Below are positions 41,381-61,487 of a stretch of DNA of 64,000 nucleotides, in pieces; the first letter of the stretch is position 1, and each line of letters begins with the position of its first letter. The position numbers were made by a program, and so were the translations under genes. The DNA lies in NCBI RefSeq assembly GCF_003289965.1, contig NZ_QMBQ01000003.1, positions 248,001 to 312,000 of the forward strand. Direction: 5' to 3'. The DNA is from Mesorhizobium atlanticum. GTDB lineage: Bacteria > Pseudomonadota > Alphaproteobacteria > Rhizobiales > Rhizobiaceae. The notes under the pieces were generated by a model that did not search any database, was not told the DNA's origin, and worked only from the letters and a program-made list of their open reading frames with translations.

Positions 41381-42126
41381 GCTTTGGCTCCGGGCCGGCC
41401 CGACCAGCCGGCGACCAGCACGATGGCGAAGTAGGGCGCCTTGTCGTCCGGCTTGTCGGCGAGCCGCATCGAGACGCTGCCCGGCATGGTGCCGCGCTCG
41501 ACATAGACGGCCTTGGCCAGCTTGCCGGTTGCCTCCAGCGCGCGCCTGATCTTCGGCAGGTTGCGGCCGACCTTCATGATGACGGCGGCATCTGTGTCGG
41601 CGAGGCGGCGGGTCAGCTCGAACTCGCTCATCGTGCCCGGCAGCACGGTCAGCACGTCGTCGCCCTGGACGATCGGCAGACCGGTCTGCGACCAGCAGCC
41701 GGACATGGCGGTGATGCCGGGGATGACTTCGGTCGGGAAACGGTGCGCCAGGCGCACATGCAGATGCATGTAGGAGCCGTAGAAGAGCGGATCGCCCTCC
41801 GACAGCACCGCCACCATCCTGCCGGCGCCGAGATGCTCGGCGACCTGCTCGGCCGACTGCTCATAGAAATCGCTGATCTGCGCGCGGTAGTCGTCGTGAT
41901 CCTTGTCGATCTCGGTCGTCACCGGATAGAGCAGCGGCAGCTCGATCATGTCCGGGCGGAAACGGGCCTCGACGATGGCGCGCGCATTGCTGTTGTTGCC
42001 GCGCTTGGCGAAATAGGCGACGATATCGGCTTCGGCCAACGCCCGCGCGGCCTTCAGCGTGAGCAACTCCGGGTCGCCGGGGCCGGTGCCGACGCCGACA
42101 AGACGGCCTTTCATGATCGCGTTCAC
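41377..42126 (-). CDS. cobI: Precorrin-2 C20-methyltransferase
   Basis: This 249-residue enzyme has LVGVGTGPGDPELLTLKA, LSEGDPLFYGSYMHLH and VIPGITAMSGC. The GTG at 42126 overlaps the cobH stop (GTGA); an ATG four codons later is an alternative. It adds the C20 methyl group to precorrin-2. Confidence 0.95.
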   Translation of the reverse strand: MNAIMKGRLVGVGTGPGDPELLTLKAARALAEADIVAYFAKRGNNSNARAIVEARFRPDMIELPLLYPVTTEIDKDHDDYRAQISDFYEQSAEQVAEHLGAGRMVAVLSEGDPLFYGSYMHLHVRLAHRFPTEVIPGITAMSGCWSQTGLPIVQGDDVLTVLPGTMSEFELTRRLADTDAAVIMKVGRNLPKIRRALEATGKLAKAVYVERGTMPGSVSMRLADKPDDKAPYFAIVLVAGWSGRPGAKA

Positions 42127-42755
42127 AGGCCGGGCCTCGCCAAGGAATTGAGCGCGGCGGCGGTCATGGCGCTGCCGCCCAGCCTGCCGCGCACGATGGC
42201 GTAGGGCACGCCATAGGAATTATCGGCCAGCGCATCTTTCGATTCTGCAGCACCCACGAAGCCAACCGGCATGCCGATGATCGCCGCCGGCTTCGGCGCG
42301 CCGTCGCGCAGTTTTTCGAGCAGATAGAAGAGCGCGGTCGGCGCGTTGCCGATGGCGACGACCGAACCTGCCATGCGCTCGCCCCAGAGGTCGATCGCCG
42401 CGGCCGAGCGGGTGTTGCCGATTTCCTTGGCGATGTCATGCGTGCGCGGATCGCGCAGCGTGCAGATCACCTCATTGCCGGCCGGCAGCCGGGCGCGCGT
42501 GACGCCATGCGCCACCATCTCGGCATCGCAGAAGATCGGCGCGCCGGCGGCCAATGCGGCGCGCGCCGCGGCGACGAAACCGTTCGAGAACACAAAATGG
42601 CTGGCGGCTTCGACCTGGCCGCAAGCATGGATCATGCGGATCGCGACATCGGCTTCGGCCTCGGAGAAGCGCTTGAGGTCAGCCTCGGCTCGGATGATGG
42701 CGAAAGAGCGCTCGTAGATCGCCATCCCGTCGTGGATATAGTCGTAGGCGGCCAT
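42123..42755 (-). CDS. cobH: Precorrin-8X methylmutase
   Basis: This 210-residue mutase moves the C11 methyl to C12, giving hydrogenobyrinate. Family segments are SFAIIRAEADL near residue 17, MIHACGQVEAA with the catalytic His, and IIGMPVGFVGAAESK. It abuts cobG directly. Confidence 0.95.
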   Translation of the reverse strand: MAAYDYIHDGMAIYERSFAIIRAEADLKRFSEAEADVAIRMIHACGQVEAASHFVFSNGFVAAARAALAAGAPIFCDAEMVAHGVTRARLPAGNEVICTLRDPRTHDIAKEIGNTRSAAAIDLWGERMAGSVVAIGNAPTALFYLLEKLRDGAPKPAAIIGMPVGFVGAAESKDALADNSYGVPYAIVRGRLGGSAMTAAALNSLARPGL

Positions 42756-44237
42756 TCAATGGTTCCGTCGATAGAGTTCGGCGATGCCGACAGCGCCAAG
42801 CCTTGTGAGGCAAACGGCGGCGGTTTCGCCTTGATGTCGTTCTCGGCGGACCGCCGCCGCAATGGCGGCGACCCCGCGCGCGGCGTCATAGCCTGGCCTG
42901 TATCCGGCAGGAAGGGCCTTTGCCGTCCCGTCCACGACAAGACCGGCTCCGTTTTCGTCGCCGACCAATGTCAGCGCCGCGGTGCCCGGATGCGCGCAGC
43001 CCTTGGCGCAGCCGGAAATGTGCAGCGTCAGCGAGGTGTCGAACAGTTCGGGGCTTTCAGTTGCGATTGTCTCGGCCATGGCGCGCGTGGCGATGCGGCC
43101 GGAAGCACAGGCCGGCGTGCCGGGACAGGCAGCGATGCGGGTGCGCGGGTCGGTGGGGGAGGTGACGAAGCCGAGGGGGGTGGCGGAGGCGCGGAGCGAG
43201 GCGCTGGTGGTGGGGGAGAGGCCGAGGACAAGCAAGGCACGGCCGGGGGAGAGGCGGATTTCGGTGGTGCCAAGGGTTGAGGCTTGGCTTGCGAGGTCGA
43301 TGAGATTTTGGGCCGGCATGCTGCCGAAAGGTAGGGCGATGCCGAGGGCGTGGCCGGTGTTGAGTTTGAAGGTGCCAATGGGACCTCCCGCAGGCTGGCG
43401 TTCCTGCACCCCCCTCTCTGTCCTGCCGGACATCTCCCCCTCAAGGGGGGAGATTGCCTTGTCACCGCGGCTTTCGCCAATCTCCAACGCTGGAGGTGGA
43501 GAGCTGTCGCGGGAACTGCCAATCTCCCCCCTTGAGGGGGAGATGTCCGGCAGGACAGAGAGGGGGGCAACAGAGTGCCAAGCTGCGAGAGAGGCCAACT
43601 GTCGCTCCGACAAATCCCGTGTGTGAGCCTCTCTGCCTCTCTCGGCAACCATCCTGAGTGCGGCCACAGCAATGTCGCGCGCAGCATCCGCGTTGACCGT
43701 CGCGAGCGGTCTTGCAGTGCGTGCGTCACCCGCAACCGACACGTCCCAACAAACATGCTCGCCGGTCCGCACCGCCTTGAGCCGCACATCGGCTCCCACC
43801 GCATCCAGCGTGAGTTGCCCACCGCCGTCGACAACCACCGACACTTTCGGCCCGAGCCGTGCCGTCACCCCAGCCTCTTCAATCGCCACCCTGATCCGCT
43901 CAGCCAGCGGGCGCGGATCGGCAATCTCCTGCGGATCGACACCCGCCAGCGGCCCGGTCTCGACCGGCACGCCGCTGCGCACCGCAATGCCCATAGCATC
44001 CACCTCTGCCGCGAGCAGCCTTGCGCTTTCCGCGCTCAGCCCGCGGATCTGCAGGCTGCCGCGCGCGGTCACTTCCATGATGCCGTTGCCGTGGCGCAGG
44101 GCGGATTCGCCCAGTCCGATCAGCGACTTGGGCGAAAGTCCTCCATCAACAGGATTGAGCCGCACCAAAAGCCCGTCGCCGGTCTGCATCGGAGCGCTCA
44201 AGGCAGGGCAGGCGCCGCGGCGTGAGAAGGCGTTCAT
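42756..44237 (-). CDS. cobG: Precorrin-3B synthase with an in-frame palindromic insertion
   Basis: This 493-residue iron-sulfur monooxygenase uses O2 to make precorrin-3B and marks the aerobic pathway. It resembles sulfite reductases: the [4Fe-4S] cysteines lie in CPGTPACASGR and SGCAKGCAHPG near the C-terminus. Residues about 224-276 are encoded by a 159-bp palindromic element (43409-43567) that keeps the frame open and reads PLSVLPDISPSRGEI...ISPLEGEMSGRTERG. The surrounding frame is otherwise intact. Its start overlaps the cobN stop. Confidence 0.93.
   Translation of the reverse strand: MNAFSRRGACPALSAPMQTGDGLLVRLNPVDGGLSPKSLIGLGESALRHGNGIMEVTARGSLQIRGLSAESARLLAAEVDAMGIAVRSGVPVETGPLAGVDPQEIADPRPLAERIRVAIEEAGVTARLGPKVSVVVDGGGQLTLDAVGADVRLKAVRTGEHVCWDVSVAGDARTARPLATVNADAARDIAVAALRMVAERGREAHTRDLSERQLASLAAWHSVAPLSVLPDISPSRGEIGSSRDSSPPPALEIGESRGDKAISPLEGEMSGRTERGVQERQPAGGPIGTFKLNTGHALGIALPFGSMPAQNLIDLASQASTLGTTEIRLSPGRALLVLGLSPTTSASLRASATPLGFVTSPTDPRTRIAACPGTPACASGRIATRAMAETIATESPELFDTSLTLHISGCAKGCAHPGTAALTLVGDENGAGLVVDGTAKALPAGYRPGYDAARGVAAIAAAVRRERHQGETAAVCLTRLGAVGIAELYRRNH
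43409..43567. repeat. 159-bp palindromic element inserted in cobG
   Basis: Two perfect 48-bp inverted arms (43409-43456 and 43520-43567) flank a 63-bp variable core. Its length is a multiple of three and it is translated in frame as part of CobG. A close relative lies in cobN. The arms include the shared string TGTCCTGCCGGACATCTCCC. Confidence 0.93.
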
Positions 44238-47200
44238 GCCGCCACCCCGCTTGCCTCGGCCTCGGCGATCAAGGCCGCGAGATCGTCGTCGATGGAATTT
44301 CTGAGCGGATGCCAGAGGCCGCGCCGGCGCGCCGACAGGAACCGTTCGGCGATGACTTTTGCGGCTGCCGGGTTCTCGCGCAACAGGAAGGCGCGGACAT
44401 CCGGGTTACCGACATAGGCGTCGTGCACCGCCTCGATCAGCGTTCCCGATATGGCATGCGTGGTTTCGGCGAAGCCGACGAGACGGTCGACCGTCTCGGC
44501 GAATTCCGAGGCGCCGCGCGGACCGTGGCGCATCTGGCCGGCGATGAAGCGCGGGTTGACGGCGCGGGCGCGGACCACGCGCGAAACCGCTTCGCTGACC
44601 GAGCGCGGCTTCGGCTTCTTCGGATCGGTCGTGTCGAGGACGATGACGTCGGCATTCCGGCCAAGTGCGGCAAGCGCCGCCGAAAACCCGCCGATGAAGG
44701 CGACGTCGGCCGAGCCTTCGAGGATGTCGCGGCCAGGGTCGTCGCCGGTGTGGACGAGGAGGTCGGCCTCGGCAATGCGTCCCTCGAAAGCGCCGGGCGC
44801 CGCGATCGCCTCGCCGTCGGCGCCGCCATAGGCGTGCGAGGTGGCGTCGAGATAGGCGCGGCCGATCTCCTCGCGCGCGCCCCATTCGCCGCGCGACAGC
44901 AGATCCTCGACGCCGGCGCCATAGGTGCCGGGCGAGGTGCCGAAAATGCGCGGGCTGACCTTGCCCTGCGCGCGGGTCGCAGCGGCTAGCGGATTTTCCG
45001 AGTCTTCCTCGTCGCGGCTGGCGACCGCGGTGGCGGCGGCGTCGATCAGCGCAATCTGAGTCGGGAACATGTCGCGGAACAGGCCGGAGATGCGCCATGT
45101 AACGTCGACGCGCGGGCGGCCGAGCGCGGCCGGCGGCAGCACCTCGATGCCGGTGACGCGCCCCGTTGCGGCATCCCACTGCGGCCGGCAGCCCATCAGC
45201 GCCAGGCCTTGGGCGATCTCCTCGCCGCCGGTGCGCAGCGAGGCCGAGCCCCAGAGGTCGATGACCAGCGAGCGCGGCCAGTCGCCATGGCTTTGCATAT
45301 AGCTGCGCACCACCTCTTCCGCTGCCGCCTGGCCGAGATCGTAGGCAGTCGGTGTCGGCATGGTGCGCGGATCGGAGGTGAAGAGGTTGCGGCCGGTGGG
45401 CAGCACGTCGGAACGGCCGCGCGCCGGCGCGCCGGCGGGACCCGCCTTGATGTGGCGGCCGTCGAGCGCGCCAAGCAGGTTCGCTTTTTCGGCTGCCGCG
45501 CTTTGCCGGCGCAGAGGATCTGTCTCGCCTTCCGGCGCGCGGCCGTAGACATGCAGCCCGTCCTTGACGGCGAAATCCTTGAGGTCACAGAGCCAGGCAT
45601 CGATGCGGCGCAGCGCCTCGTCGGGTTGATCGGTCTTGGCGACGCCGGCTTCCGAGGCAAGTCCGGTCTTTCGCGCCGTCTCGACGATCAGCTTTGCAAG
45701 GCGGTCACGGCGGCGACGGTCGAGACCGTCGGCCTGGGCATACTCGTCGACCAGCCGCTCCAGCTTCTGTTGGGCCTCATCGAGGCCGGCGCCGGTCAGC
45801 GGCGGAGGCAGATGGCCGAGGGTCACGGCCGAAATGCGGCGCTTGGCCTGCGCCGCCTCGCCAGGATTGGAGACGATGAAGGGATAGATGACCGGCAGCG
45901 AGCCGGTGACGATCTCGGGGAAGCAGGTGTCGGAGAGCGCGACGGTCTTGCCCGGCAGCCATTCCAGCGTGCCATGCGCGCCGACATGGACGATGGCATG
46001 GACGCCGAGCGATTTCCGCAGCCAGAGGCCGAAGGCGATCAGCTCGTGGCGCGGGGGGAGCGTCGGGTCGTGGTAGTCGGCGCGCCGGTCGGCGGAACGA
46101 CCGCGGTCGGGGGCGAGGGCCACGGTGATGTTGCCAAAGGTCGCGGCGCGGAAGGGGAAGTGCGCTAAGGTTGGCGCCTGAACACCCCTCTCTGTCCTGC
46201 CGGACATCTCCCCCGCAAGGGGGGAGATTGGCAGTTCCGCCGACGGCGCCATTCCTGCAACGCTGGCGATTGGCGAAAGCGGTGGCGACAAATTGATCTC
46301 CCCCCCTGCGGGGGAGATGTCCGGCAGGACAGAGAGGGGGGCCTCGCGCAACCCTATCCGGCCTTCCGCGCTCCCCCAGGCAGCCCTGACTGCGTCATGC
46401 GCGCCTTCCGGCAGTTCCGTGGACATGCGCAGGTAGTCTTCTGAACTCAACCCGTGCCCGCCCACCTCCAACGCATACAGCAATTCCCGAGGCGATTGTG
46501 GAATCCCATCAACCGGATAGCCCTGTTCTTTCAGGTCATGCAGCATGGCGAGCACGCTCGACGGCACGTCCAGCCCAACGGCGTAGCCGGTCCGTCCAGG
46601 CGCGCTCGGATAATCCGGGATCAGGATGGCAAGCTTGCGCTTTGCCCGATCCGTCCGCTGCAGGCGAATGAACGCCGCGATCCGCCTGGCGACCTGCGCG
46701 ACTCGATCCGCCTCCGGCCGGTTGGCGAAAGCGCGAAAAGCCAGCGCCGGGTCTGTCTCGACTTCGCCCTTGAAGGAAATAGCGCCGGCCAGGATGCGGC
46801 CGTCGAGCTCGGGCAGGACGACATGCATGGCGAGATCGGCGGGCGCCAGGCCGCGCTGGTTCTTCTCCCAGACATCGCGTCGCGTCGTGGCGACGATGAC
46901 CTGGAACACCGGCACGCCGGCACGGTCGAACAGGGTTTCGGCGCCGGGTTCGGCGCCCGAGGCAAAGGCCGTGGCGGTGACGATAGCGGCGGGGTTCAGT
47001 GAGGCGAGGGCGGCTTCGACGAAGGCCAGGGATGCCGGGTCCTTGATGCTGGACACGAAGATCGGCACGGGTGCCAAGCCTTGCGCACGCAAGGCGGCGA
47101 CGAGCGCATCAATGGGCGCGACGTCGGCGGCCAGCAGCATCGAGCGGTAGAAGAGGATGGGAATGATGGGGGAGCCGACGTTGTCGGCGTCGCCAACGCT

Positions 47201-47779
47201 CGATAAGACAGGCTTTTCGACAACTCCCAGCCCAGGCTCATAATATCCAGCCTTCGGCACGCCGACCGGTTCGGCAACTGCCGCATCCGACCCCGCAAGC
47301 CTTGCCAGCCTTTGCACCAGCGCCGCCATGTTCGCCGGGCCGCCTTCGCGGAAATAGCCCAGCAGCGCATCCAGCTCAGCGCGCGGCAGGGTCGAGGCTT
47401 CAATCAGCCGCGGGTCCTCGTCATGGCTTTCGCCGGGCAGCAGCGCCAGCTTTATGCCGCGCTCGCGCGCCATCGCTGCCAGCTGGTCGCAGCCGTAGCG
47501 CCACCAGTCGTAACCGCCGAGGATGCGGACGAGGACGACCTTGGCGTGGCGGGCCACGCTGTCGATCCAGAGATCGACCGACATCGGATGGCGCAGGTCG
47601 CGCAGGGCCGCAAGCCGCATCGAGGGCAGCCGCTCCGCATCGGCCTTCCAGGCGGCGGCCACGCCGGCGAGATCGCTGTCGGTGAAGGATAGGGCCACGA
47701 CATCCGCAGGCGTCTGCCTGAGGTCGACCGGCTCGGCGAGATCGTCGAGCGAAGCGGATGTGGTGGCGAGGATATGCAT
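44234..47779 (-). CDS. cobN: Cobaltochelatase large subunit with an in-frame palindromic insertion
   Basis: This 1181-residue subunit inserts cobalt into hydrogenobyrinate a,c-diamide with the AAA+ subunits CobS/CobT of the chelatase, which are not in this window. Typical segments include VHVGAHGTLEWLPGK near the middle and the GGEEIAQGLALMG/GVEDLLSRGEWG parts. Residues about 480-532 come from a second palindromic element (46185-46339), read as PLSVLPDISPAGGEI...ISPLAGEMSGRTERG. The start is the ATG at 47779, 18 bp after cobW. Confidence 0.94.
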   Translation of the reverse strand: MHILATTSASLDDLAEPVDLRQTPADVVALSFTDSDLAGVAAAWKADAERLPSMRLAALRDLRHPMSVDLWIDSVARHAKVVLVRILGGYDWWRYGCDQLAAMARERGIKLALLPGESHDEDPRLIEASTLPRAELDALLGYFREGGPANMAALVQRLARLAGSDAAVAEPVGVPKAGYYEPGLGVVEKPVLSSVGDADNVGSPIIPILFYRSMLLAADVAPIDALVAALRAQGLAPVPIFVSSIKDPASLAFVEAALASLNPAAIVTATAFASGAEPGAETLFDRAGVPVFQVIVATTRRDVWEKNQRGLAPADLAMHVVLPELDGRILAGAISFKGEVETDPALAFRAFANRPEADRVAQVARRIAAFIRLQRTDRAKRKLAILIPDYPSAPGRTGYAVGLDVPSSVLAMLHDLKEQGYPVDGIPQSPRELLYALEVGGHGLSSEDYLRMSTELPEGAHDAVRAAWGSAEGRIGLREAPLSVLPDISPAGGEINLSPPLSPIASVAGMAPSAELPISPLAGEMSGRTERGVQAPTLAHFPFRAATFGNITVALAPDRGRSADRRADYHDPTLPPRHELIAFGLWLRKSLGVHAIVHVGAHGTLEWLPGKTVALSDTCFPEIVTGSLPVIYPFIVSNPGEAAQAKRRISAVTLGHLPPPLTGAGLDEAQQKLERLVDEYAQADGLDRRRRDRLAKLIVETARKTGLASEAGVAKTDQPDEALRRIDAWLCDLKDFAVKDGLHVYGRAPEGETDPLRRQSAAAEKANLLGALDGRHIKAGPAGAPARGRSDVLPTGRNLFTSDPRTMPTPTAYDLGQAAAEEVVRSYMQSHGDWPRSLVIDLWGSASLRTGGEEIAQGLALMGCRPQWDAATGRVTGIEVLPPAALGRPRVDVTWRISGLFRDMFPTQIALIDAAATAVASRDEEDSENPLAAATRAQGKVSPRIFGTSPGTYGAGVEDLLSRGEWGAREEIGRAYLDATSHAYGGADGEAIAAPGAFEGRIAEADLLVHTGDDPGRDILEGSADVAFIGGFSAALAALGRNADVIVLDTTDPKKPKPRSVSEAVSRVVRARAVNPRFIAGQMRHGPRGASEFAETVDRLVGFAETTHAISGTLIEAVHDAYVGNPDVRAFLLRENPAAAKVIAERFLSARRRGLWHPLRNSIDDDLAALIAEAEASGVAA
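46185..46339. repeat. 155-bp palindromic element inserted in cobN
   Basis: 44-bp inverted arms with one mismatch (46185-46228 and 46296-46339) flank a 67-bp core that is unrelated to the cobG core. The arms are nearly identical to those of the cobG element, and it is also translated in frame. Confidence 0.92.
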
Positions 47780-47797
47780 CGCGGTCTGGATTTTGCC

Positions 47798-48835
47798 TCA
47801 GCCGGCGAGGATACGCTCGATCGCCGGGCGGTTCAGCCCCTTGAGGCCGATGACGACGAGCCGCGAGCGGCGATCGTCCTCGGCGGTCCAGGCGCGGTCG
47901 TAATAGTGGTTGACGCGCGGGCCGACAGCCTGGAGCAGGAGCCGCATCGGCTTGCCGCCGACCTCCACGAACCCTTTGACGCGCAACACGTTTTCCTGCT
48001 CGGCGGCAAGCGCGACGCGCTTTGCCAGCTCGTCCGGATTGGCGATCGACGGGATGTCGATGACGAAGGAATCGAAATCGTCGTGCTCATGGTCGAGCTC
48101 GTCGTCGTGATGGGTCTTGCGGTTCTCGATATCGTCCTCGACGGCGAGGCCGAGGCCGAGCAGCACCGACGGATCGACCTTGCCCTGCGCGGTCGGCACG
48201 ACTTTCACGGCGCGCGCCACATGCTCGCCGATAACGGCGTTGGCGCGCTCCGAACCGGCCGCGTCCATCAGATCGCTCTTCGAAAGGATGATCAGGTCGG
48301 CGCAGGCGATCTGGTCCTCGAACACTTCCTCGACCGGATCGTCATGGTCGAGCGTCACGTCCGCGGCGCGCTGCGCCTGCAGCGCATCCATGTCGGAGGC
48401 CACGCGGCCGTCGGCCAGCGCCGGGCCGTCGACCACGGCGACGACGCCGTCGACGGTGACGCGGCTCTTCACCGTCGGCCACTGAAAGGCCTGGACAAGC
48501 GGCTTCGGCAGAGCGAGGCCGGAGGTCTCGATCAGGATGTGGTCGACCCTCGGCGTGCGCGACAGGATCTGGTCGAGCGCCGGCACGAAATCGTCGGCGA
48601 CGGTGCAGCAGATGCAGCCATTGGCGAGCTCGACGATGTTTTCTTCCGGACAGGTGTCGACGCCGCAGCCTTTCAGGATCTCACCGTCGATGCCGACATC
48701 GCCGAACTCGTTGACGATGATCGCCAGCCGCTTGCCCTTGGCATTTTCGAGCAGGTTGCGGATCAGCGTCGTCTTGCCGGCGCCGAGGAAGCCGGTGACG
48801 ACGGTGCAGGGCACGCGGGAAACGGAAGCGTTCAT
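47798..48835 (-). CDS. cobW: Cobalamin biosynthesis GTPase CobW
   Basis: This 345-residue G3E-family GTPase has Walker A TGFLGAGKTTLIRN at residues about 14-27, the metal-binding NGCICCTV motif, and GTP specificity SKSD. A histidine/aspartate-rich stretch (HHDDELDHEHDDFD) near residue 250 fits metal handling. CobW is thought to deliver cobalt to the chelatase CobN, which follows 18 bp later. Confidence 0.95.
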   Translation of the reverse strand: MNASVSRVPCTVVTGFLGAGKTTLIRNLLENAKGKRLAIIVNEFGDVGIDGEILKGCGVDTCPEENIVELANGCICCTVADDFVPALDQILSRTPRVDHILIETSGLALPKPLVQAFQWPTVKSRVTVDGVVAVVDGPALADGRVASDMDALQAQRAADVTLDHDDPVEEVFEDQIACADLIILSKSDLMDAAGSERANAVIGEHVARAVKVVPTAQGKVDPSVLLGLGLAVEDDIENRKTHHDDELDHEHDDFDSFVIDIPSIANPDELAKRVALAAEQENVLRVKGFVEVGGKPMRLLLQAVGPRVNHYYDRAWTAEDDRRSRLVVIGLKGLNRPAIERILAG

Positions 48836-52016: not shown

Positions 52017-52619
52017 ATGACCTTGGCGTTGAACGAACTCTCCACCTATCTCGGCGAGAAGCTCTCCGGCCGCATCGGCGAAGCCGTGCTTGCGTATGGC
52101 GAGTTGACGGTTCCCGTTGAGCCGGGCAATCTGATCGAGGTGGCCACCTTCCTACGCGACGACCCGCGCTGCCAGTTCATCTCGATCATCGACATTTGTG
52201 GCGCCGACTACCCGTCGCGCGCCAGGCGCTTCGACGTCGTCTATCACCTTCTGTCGCCTAAGCAGAATGTGCGCATCCGCCTCAAGGTCCAGGCCGACGA
52301 GGAGACGCTGGTGCCGTCGCTTACCGCCGTCTATCCCGGCGCCGACTGGTACGAACGTGAGACCTACGATCTCTACGGCGTCCTGTTCAGCGGCCATCCG
52401 GATCTGCGCCGCATCCTCACCGATTACGGTTTCGACGGGCACCCGCTCCGCAAGGATTTCCCGCTGACCGGCTTCGTCGAGGTTCGCTATGACGACGAAG
52501 CCAAGCGGGTCATCTACGAGCCGGTCGAGCTCAAGCAGGAATTCCGCAATTTCGATTTTCTTTCTCCTTGGGAAGGGACGGATTACGTCCTGCCGGGGGA
52601 TGAGAAGGCGAAGCAGTGA
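52017..52619 (+). CDS. nuoC: NADH-quinone oxidoreductase subunit C
   Basis: This 200-residue subunit of the peripheral arm has the 30-kDa signature [20 protein letters not shown] followed by [10 protein letters not shown]. It begins 4 bp after nuoB. It is separate from nuoD, unlike the fused NuoCD of E. coli. A repeat-flanked insertion follows it immediately. Confidence 0.97.
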
Positions 52620-52644
52620 ATGGTGAATAGTGAATGGTAAATGG
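52616..52644 (+). repeat. Left GTGAATGG-type repeat flanking the four-helix-bundle gene
   Basis: A degenerate tandem of GTGAATGG/GTGAATAG units starts at the nuoC stop codon and runs into the start codon of the next gene. Its reverse complement resembles the right-hand repeat at 53025-53061. Confidence 0.8.
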
Positions 52645-53024: not shown

Positions 53025-53061
53025 CCATTCACCATTCACCATTCACCATTCACTATTCGCC
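53025..53061 (+). repeat. Right CCATTCAC-type repeat flanking the four-helix-bundle gene
   Basis: Tandem CCATTCAC units (about four, the last ones CACTATTCGCC) follow the stop codon directly. They are the inverted counterpart of the repeat at 52616-52644 and end 11 bp before nuoD. Confidence 0.8.
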
Positions 53062-53072
53062 AAGGGCGACCC

Positions 53073-61362: not shown

Positions 61363-61487
61363 CTTCTCCCCGTTTACGGGGAGAAGATGCCGGCAGGCAG
61401 ATGAGGGGCGGCGCCAGCTTCTGGAAACTTGGCGTTACCCCTCATCCGGCCCTTCGGGCCACCTTCTCCGCGTAAACGGGGAGAAGG
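61363..61487. repeat. RIME-like palindromic mosaic repeat between nuoI and nuoJ
   Basis: CTTCTCCCCGTTTACGGGGA at the left and GCGTAAACGGGGAGAAGG at the right form inverted arms of about 125 bp overall, with internal CCCCTCATCCGGC/GATGAGGGGC segments. This resembles the Rhizobium-specific intergenic mosaic elements. It would form a long hairpin in the nuo mRNA. Confidence 0.8.

Follow-up and report, generated by a model that had tools for sequence, protein, structure and literature searches.

Rickettsia palindromic elements (RPEs), reportedly described by Ogata et al. in 2000 and 2002, are, together with the palindromes of Wolbachia, among the closest known systems to the repeat considered here. 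Among rhizobia, the Rhizobium-specific intergenic mosaic elements (RIMEs) are said to go back to Osteras et al. in 1995 and are described as intergenic. Excerpts of the literature present RPEs as palindromic repeats of 105-146 bp that lie in frame in conserved genes as well as between genes, form stable hairpins (PMC2229807, PMC10969869) and lose their repeat identity over time (PMC6649704), and RIMEs as repeats of rhizobia (PMC2573895). In similar excerpts, REPs are 20-40 bp long and tagged GTAG or CGTC, and a 2013 study places such repeats within a gene, in recB, at nearly matching positions in two species of Xanthomonas (PMC3733652). Small MITE-like repeats of enterobacteria and Neisseria are outlined as fused in frame to genes (Delihas, 2007; PMC2759123, PMC2229807), and Nematomorpha mitochondria as carrying long, actively maintained inverted repeats in coding genes, for which template switching has been proposed (PMC6649704). 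A 2024 review, again in excerpt, calls RPE-like protein evolution in other prokaryotes 'conceivable' (PMC10969869). Among the literature matches listed, titles and abstract openings contain no description of the Mesorhizobium element reported here.

The element in cobG, cobN and the source genome

The window, a stretch of 64,000 nt from Mesorhizobium atlanticum, carries on its minus strand cobG (42756..44237), an open reading frame for a precorrin-3B synthase of 493 aa that matches the CobG model TIGR02435 (447.4 bits, cut-off 234.8) and Pfam NIR_SIR_ferr and NIR_SIR. A first-pass annotation had noticed in it two exact 48-bp inverted arms around a 63-bp core, inserted without stop or frameshift, and this description holds. 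In the coding sense, the 5' arm (43520..43567, minus strand; APLSVLPDISPSRGEI) is the exact reverse complement of the 3' arm (43409..43456, minus strand; ISPLEGEMSGRTERG), and the 63-bp core between them (43457..43519, minus strand) runs in the direction that we call orientation A, with a profile score of 153.6 against 108.9 for the other strand, from a profile that includes this copy. The 159 bp lie as a low-complexity insert inside the uninterrupted 493-codon frame and supply the predicted peptide of about 53 residues, namely CobG residues 224-277, the first and last of them only partly. Beyond the exact arms, weaker complementarity runs outward to give 72-nt arms at 86%. Many copies of the element, judged by eye, are also capped on the outside by about 12 bp more, taken from a limited repertoire of sequences; here the probable caps, with approximate limits, were placed by eye and from the weak palindromic extension at 43568..43580 (5' side in the coding sense, WHSVA) and 43397..43408 (3' side, VQERQ), both on the minus strand.

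The element is not a product of chance. Motif CCTGCCGGACATCTCCCC, with up to 3 mismatches, occurs four times in the window against 0.11 expected, a count reached in 0 of 100 shuffles. The predicted fold of 43397-43580 has an energy of -149.5 kcal/mol against -77.1 in shuffles (z -16.5; 0 of 200 shuffles as low). In an AlphaFold2 model of CobG (mean pLDDT 83.1, pTM 0.80), pLDDT falls below 50 only at residues 1-7 and 223-283, which makes the insert the sole internal segment of this kind. Inteins have a splicing domain and a length well over 100 residues; an intein was considered and set aside for this 53-residue insert, in which a Pfam scan at E up to 1e-4 found no domain. An Rfam scan of 42000-47800 gave six matches, all below the gathering threshold; the one to MIR8622 (68.4 of 197 bits) probably reflects hairpin structure in general.

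A second in-frame copy, overlooked in the first-pass annotation, lies in the neighbouring gene cobN (44234..47779, minus strand), which encodes a cobaltochelatase subunit of 1181 aa (open reading frame matching NF008973 at 1607.3 bits, cut-off 1235). Found by an inverted-pair search at 46185..46341 (minus strand), around CobN residues 480-532, it is 86% identical to the cobG copy as an inverted pair and has arms of its own of 44 nt at 98%. The arm peptide already read from cobG recurs here, both inserts reading PLSVLPDISP...ISPL.GEMSGRTERG in the coding sense; the core peptides differ (GSSRDSSPPPALEIGESRGDKA in CobG, NLSPPLSPIASVAGMAPSAELP in CobN) because the two cores lie in opposite orientations. 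The region 46170-46352 is again predicted to fold strongly (-133.7 kcal/mol, z -11.9). The AlphaFold2 model of CobN is poor overall (mean pLDDT 61.6, pTM 0.51), and its low score at 476-537 might be taken as a weak sign of disorder.

The element belongs to a multi-copy family, as a genome-wide count suggested by the first-pass annotation makes clear. The 6.53-Mb source genome yields 81 BLAST matches to the element, both strands counted, and a profile run against the window and the fetched loci picks out 45 matched stretches, 26 of them two-armed and a few of them RIME-like relatives. The general form is a multi-copy palindrome of about 100-200 bp, with arms of about 48 bp, a core mostly of 60-95 bp and variable outer caps. 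A peptide-level search found the family in 37 of 41 sampled genomes of the genus, the source genome included, and in 21 records of a plasmid collection; the best match lies outside any annotated gene in 20 of these, by an incomplete gene table, and the remaining record carries no annotation. Copies seem crowded on one 657-kb contig of the source genome (C24), which holds 13 among the matches listed.

Besides CobG and CobN, the element occurs in frame inside two further unrelated conserved genes, those for the pyruvate dehydrogenase (PDH) E2 of the source genome and an ABC ATPase of other species. Outside the window, 18 open reading frames of the source genome that include or reach into a copy were hand-picked; six of them match a Pfam family, and only E2 (TIGR01349, 465.8 bits, cut-off 445) has domains on both sides of its copy: the two arms are in frame, in inside-out order, between the lipoyl and E3-binding domains. 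The ABC ATPase, of oligopeptide type, contains the element, always in frame, at 12 of the 20 loci fetched in other species; these loci were selected for their long open frames in the shared phase, by a search with a frame-P peptide that is biased to frame P. At the other eight loci (L349, L360, L362-L367) the element is absent from that ABC gene, family searches found no match with Pfam (L360, L362, L363, L365) or NCBIfam (L363, L366), and these copies may not be intragenic.

Retention, frame and other repeats in the same linkers

A search of the genus covered 146 genomes, of which 142 have CobG. Both CobG flanks were found in the 123 genomes examined: 98 of those 142, namely the best matches and genomes whose match was split, plus 25 belonging to other genera; one locus cut by a contig end (L111) was left out. 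A full-length element, defined as a score above 60 bits in the CobG linker, occupies the same linker in 94 of the 123 genomes and in 11 genus groups (78 of 98 in the genus; 16 of 25 elsewhere, from 10 other genus groups). The first-pass annotation had named absence from other isolates, together with an inactive cobG, as a point against its reading; the element is present in other species. The remaining 29 genomes have remnants, other repeats or linkers with no recognisable element, and the gene is open in 28 of them. Homologues that lack the DNA repeat and yet carry the same peptide, which would have spoken against an insertion, did not turn up: the peptide is absent from these 29 linkers or partial in them. 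Shortened in-frame remnants are kept in many species. Overall, the cobG frame is open in 119 of 123 genomes; for cobN, 81 of 85 sites have their flanks in frame and four do not.

The hosts that are out of frame or end early are L094, L125, L169 and L209 for cobN and L114, L117, L119 and L169 for cobG; in several, the defect lies near the G/C runs of the arms and could be a sequencing error or a real loss. A second CobN linker, near residue 190, has copies of the element and another repeat in some of 26 aligned proteins. At this second site in L239, L242, L247 and L271, translation passes through the 5' arm in a different frame (giving PPLSCRTSPPQGGR or something close to it) and through the 3' arm in the usual frame; other species have a different repeat there. 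An insert of approximately GGEEWSAQRTESQLLGFPSDERPERQRRAGS lies inside the element's 3' arm in cobG of L118, L125 and L197 and in cobN of L118, L125, L231 and L232, so that sequence has entered a repeat inside a gene; in L125 this insert is read in another frame.

Selection appears to act on the frame and not on the sequence of the insert. The arm-to-arm span is 2 mod 3 in 75 of 75 two-armed cobG copies and 42 of 44 in cobN, against 5 of 24 other copies of the source genome, four of which are RIME-like (Fisher tests, 4e-16 for cobG and 2e-10 for cobN). The 75 cobG copies come from 91 full-length copies with open frames, the other 16 lacking the exact motifs. Median dN/dS of the CobG flanks is 0.178 in 12 pairs with the element and 0.214 in 12 pairs without a full-length copy; by these ratios, the flanks are under similar purifying selection either way. 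Since the gene of L125 stays open with its insert in a shifted frame, the insert peptide itself seems replaceable. An intrinsic preference of the element for frame P was considered and rejected, the three frames of 20 source-genome copies outside the window being open in 20, 22 and 21 of 40 strand readings. Given frames about equally open and a left arm read in another frame in the second CobN linker, the reading phase common to CobG, CobN, E2 and the ABC ATPase is no more than suggestive.

The same linkers also hold other multi-copy repeats. CobN of L122, L219, L220 and L233 has a different family at the same site, the L219 type, with 89 two-strand matches in one searched genome and 69 in the other, and CobG of L185 has another palindrome, with 26 two-strand matches in its own genome. 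The linkers of CobN in L267 and CobG in L190 hold what we take to be RIME-like sequence. Copies of the source genome with arms CCCCTCAT..CTTCTCCCCG are presumably RIMEs and share the CCTGCCGG motif with the element; in the window, 61363-61486 would be a RIME-like example, with two inverted halves (CTTCTCCCCG...) flanking a short spacer. A further side observation in the window is a gene for a 127-aa four helix bundle protein (TIGR02436; 52641-53024, plus strand), flanked by inverted runs of GTGAATG-type heptamers at 52615-52644 and 53025-53062. Together these look like a small inserted unit, and the open reading frame that starts just after it presumably resembles nuoD.

Core orientation, arm covariation and competing explanations

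We consider it probable, at roughly 0.8, that the element is a selfish palindromic repeat tolerated in disordered linkers, selected to remain in frame, and reshaped by inversion, by homogenisation or replacement of its arms, and by deletion. A short non-autonomous palindromic repeat, perhaps moved originally by a transposase acting in trans, would have spread over the chromosome and entered disordered linkers, those of CobG and CobN above all, and would persist there because such a linker accepts nearly any sequence that has a suitable length and no stop codon. When the arms pair in the course of replication or repair, the core could invert, the arms could correct or replace each other, or the middle could be lost, and selection would retain the in-frame products of inversion, arm exchange and deletion. 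A target duplication, for which the first-pass annotation had suggested a search, was not found.

The core is present in both orientations: 56 of the 94 full-length cobG copies are A, 37 are B and one is undecided. The same core occurs inverted at the orthologous cobN site in L092 and L105 (99%) and in L091 and L110 (94%), and at cobG in L205 and L229 (94%); in 5,858 comparisons of cores from different sites, the 99.9th percentile is 0.851 and the maximum 0.925. The immediate flanks are common to L092 and L105, and in L091 and L110 the loop letters of the arms seem to have swapped sides as well. These near-identical inverted pairs favour a change of orientation within a copy over exchange. Exchange between species would also give co-changing arms and differing orientations, and inversion is therefore seen as an outcome rather than as a mechanism.

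The strongest competitor treats the linkers as hot spots where one copy after another gives way to a new insertion or is overwritten through recombination with a different species or a different copy in the genome. Arm covariation and opposite orientations would then stem from replacement and not from events inside one copy. The other multi-copy repeats in the same linkers (the L219 type in CobN, the L185 type in CobG) speak for it, as do the different cores of the close CobG relatives L105 and L107 and the mosaic look of the caps. States are also scattered on the CobG tree, where orientation takes 24 changes and shuffles average 27.5 (as few or fewer in 44 of 500), and the full or not-full state takes 25 against 25.2 (266 of 500); such near-random states fit fast turnover and also mosaic genes. 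Against it, the cobG copy of the window shares 95.4% identity with its counterparts in cobG of L107 and L092 and at most 87.0% with 19 other copies of its own genome, and the cobN copy is 93.1% identical (inverted) to that of L092 and at most 87.8% to copies of its own genome. In 26 of 28 species the cobG copy is nearer to another cobG copy than to the cobN copy of its own genome, a comparison that favours the larger set. With the shared flanks and 99% inverted core of L092 and L105 also against it, repeated replacement remains a tentative reading, at distinctly less than even odds.

The proposed reading could also be taken a step further. Mirror-image arms and a span of 2 mod 3 mean that a flip of the core would replace one stop-free peptide, about 22-28 residues long, by an unrelated one with no frameshift. 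A virtual flip keeps the frame open in 65 of 75 cobG and 40 of 42 cobN copies. That CobG and CobN hold a frame-neutral invertible peptide cassette, with flipping ongoing within populations of rhizobia and two linker sequences made from one gene, is doubtful in our estimate. Selection for a flippable frame was considered when the antisense frame P seemed enriched, and was dropped after core-only counts and an ordinary-codon control gave similar openness in cobG.

Arm covariation bears on a possible role of the hairpin in RNA. Of the 91 copies, 76 could be parsed for arm residues, and in 68 of them a loop residue of the 5' arm and its partner about 31-37 residues further on are T/V (36), S/E (22) or A/A (10), the pairings that DNA complementarity predicts. 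Counting phylogenetically independent pairs on well-supported branches, the two change in the same direction on average in 9.1 of 11, 6.8 of 8 and 6.5 of 7 cases and in the opposite direction in 0 to 0.1. A permutation of whole 36-bp arms gave a weak signal (331 mismatches in total, where shuffles average 350.2 and 284 of 10,000 are as low), because all copies are close to one consensus. If selection favoured the hairpin for a role in the cob mRNA, such as a cleavage site for RNase III or a pause in translation, both the extreme stability of the predicted hairpins (z -16.5 and -11.9) and the compensatory changes at the loop triplet would follow. Arm mismatches that leave G-U should then exceed those that leave A-C, yet the counts are 45 against 51 in 71 cobG copies and 26 against 25 in 41 cobN copies, and 29 of 123 genomes do without a full-length cobG copy. 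RNA-level selection was accordingly set aside as very unlikely; the lack of a G-U bias points instead to what may be a process at the level of DNA or replacement of whole copies.

A regulated, reversible switch, in which a recombinase flips the core within populations and the two peptides differ in function, would agree with both orientations at orthologous sites, with near-identical inverted cores and with the 105 of 117 copies whose core stays open after a virtual flip. In cobG, however, flipping leaves the frame open at about the rate found for that antisense frame in ordinary coding windows (504 of 593), and we regard such a switch as highly improbable. Likewise highly improbable is that opposite orientations are assembly errors: identical inverted arms do make the core ambiguous for short reads and many genomes are drafts, among them L105, L091, L110, L205 and L229 of the three best inverted pairs (L092 being assembled in a single contig), but the 16 single-contig assemblies of the genus that were looked at show eight A, six B and two without a full copy, and orientation B is found in 37 of 94 copies.

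Relation to known repeats

The element can be set against each of the described families. At about 160 bp, with a 48-bp arm that has neither GTAG nor CGTC on either strand, it is unlike the 20-40 bp REPs. RIMEs are described as intergenic, whereas the cobG and cobN copies are intragenic. Terminal inverted repeats, a small size and no room for a transposase gene are features in common with MITEs; no clean empty site was found: the ABC orthologue of the source genome (L369), considered as one, keeps what look like both end caps at its junction and is better read as a deletion remnant. The excerpts on the MITE-like repeats of Delihas (2007) say nothing on long orthologous retention, core inversion or arm covariation (PMC2229807). 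In Nematomorpha, as far as the excerpted account goes, both arms encode conserved host residues and are not described as an inserted repeat family (PMC6649704).

The likeness to the protein-coding palindromes of Rickettsia drawn in the first-pass annotation stands, on the multi-copy palindrome, the codon-compatible length and the host gene under purifying selection. RPEs and the element are both palindromes with stable hairpins, in frame within conserved genes, likened by behaviour and not by sequence. The hosts of RPEs are obligate intracellular bacteria, while those of the element are rhizobia. RPEs are said to lose their repeat identity with time, whereas the arm residues of the element still covary. 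Unlike RPEs, the element fills the same CobG and CobN linkers across many species and genera, with both core orientations at one site.

With 123 orthologous snapshots of one site, the rhizobial case makes it possible to trace how a coding palindrome inverts, homogenises its arms and undergoes in-frame deletion. It suggests a route by which new peptide sequence is fed into the disordered linkers of metabolic enzymes, and, as an evolutionary record, it shows the instability of inverted repeats as filtered by the reading frame. What is new beyond the Rickettsia precedent is the presence of both core orientations at orthologous sites, with three inverted-core species pairs, together with distant arm residues that change in concert, remnants that stay in frame, and further multi-copy repeats sharing those linkers.
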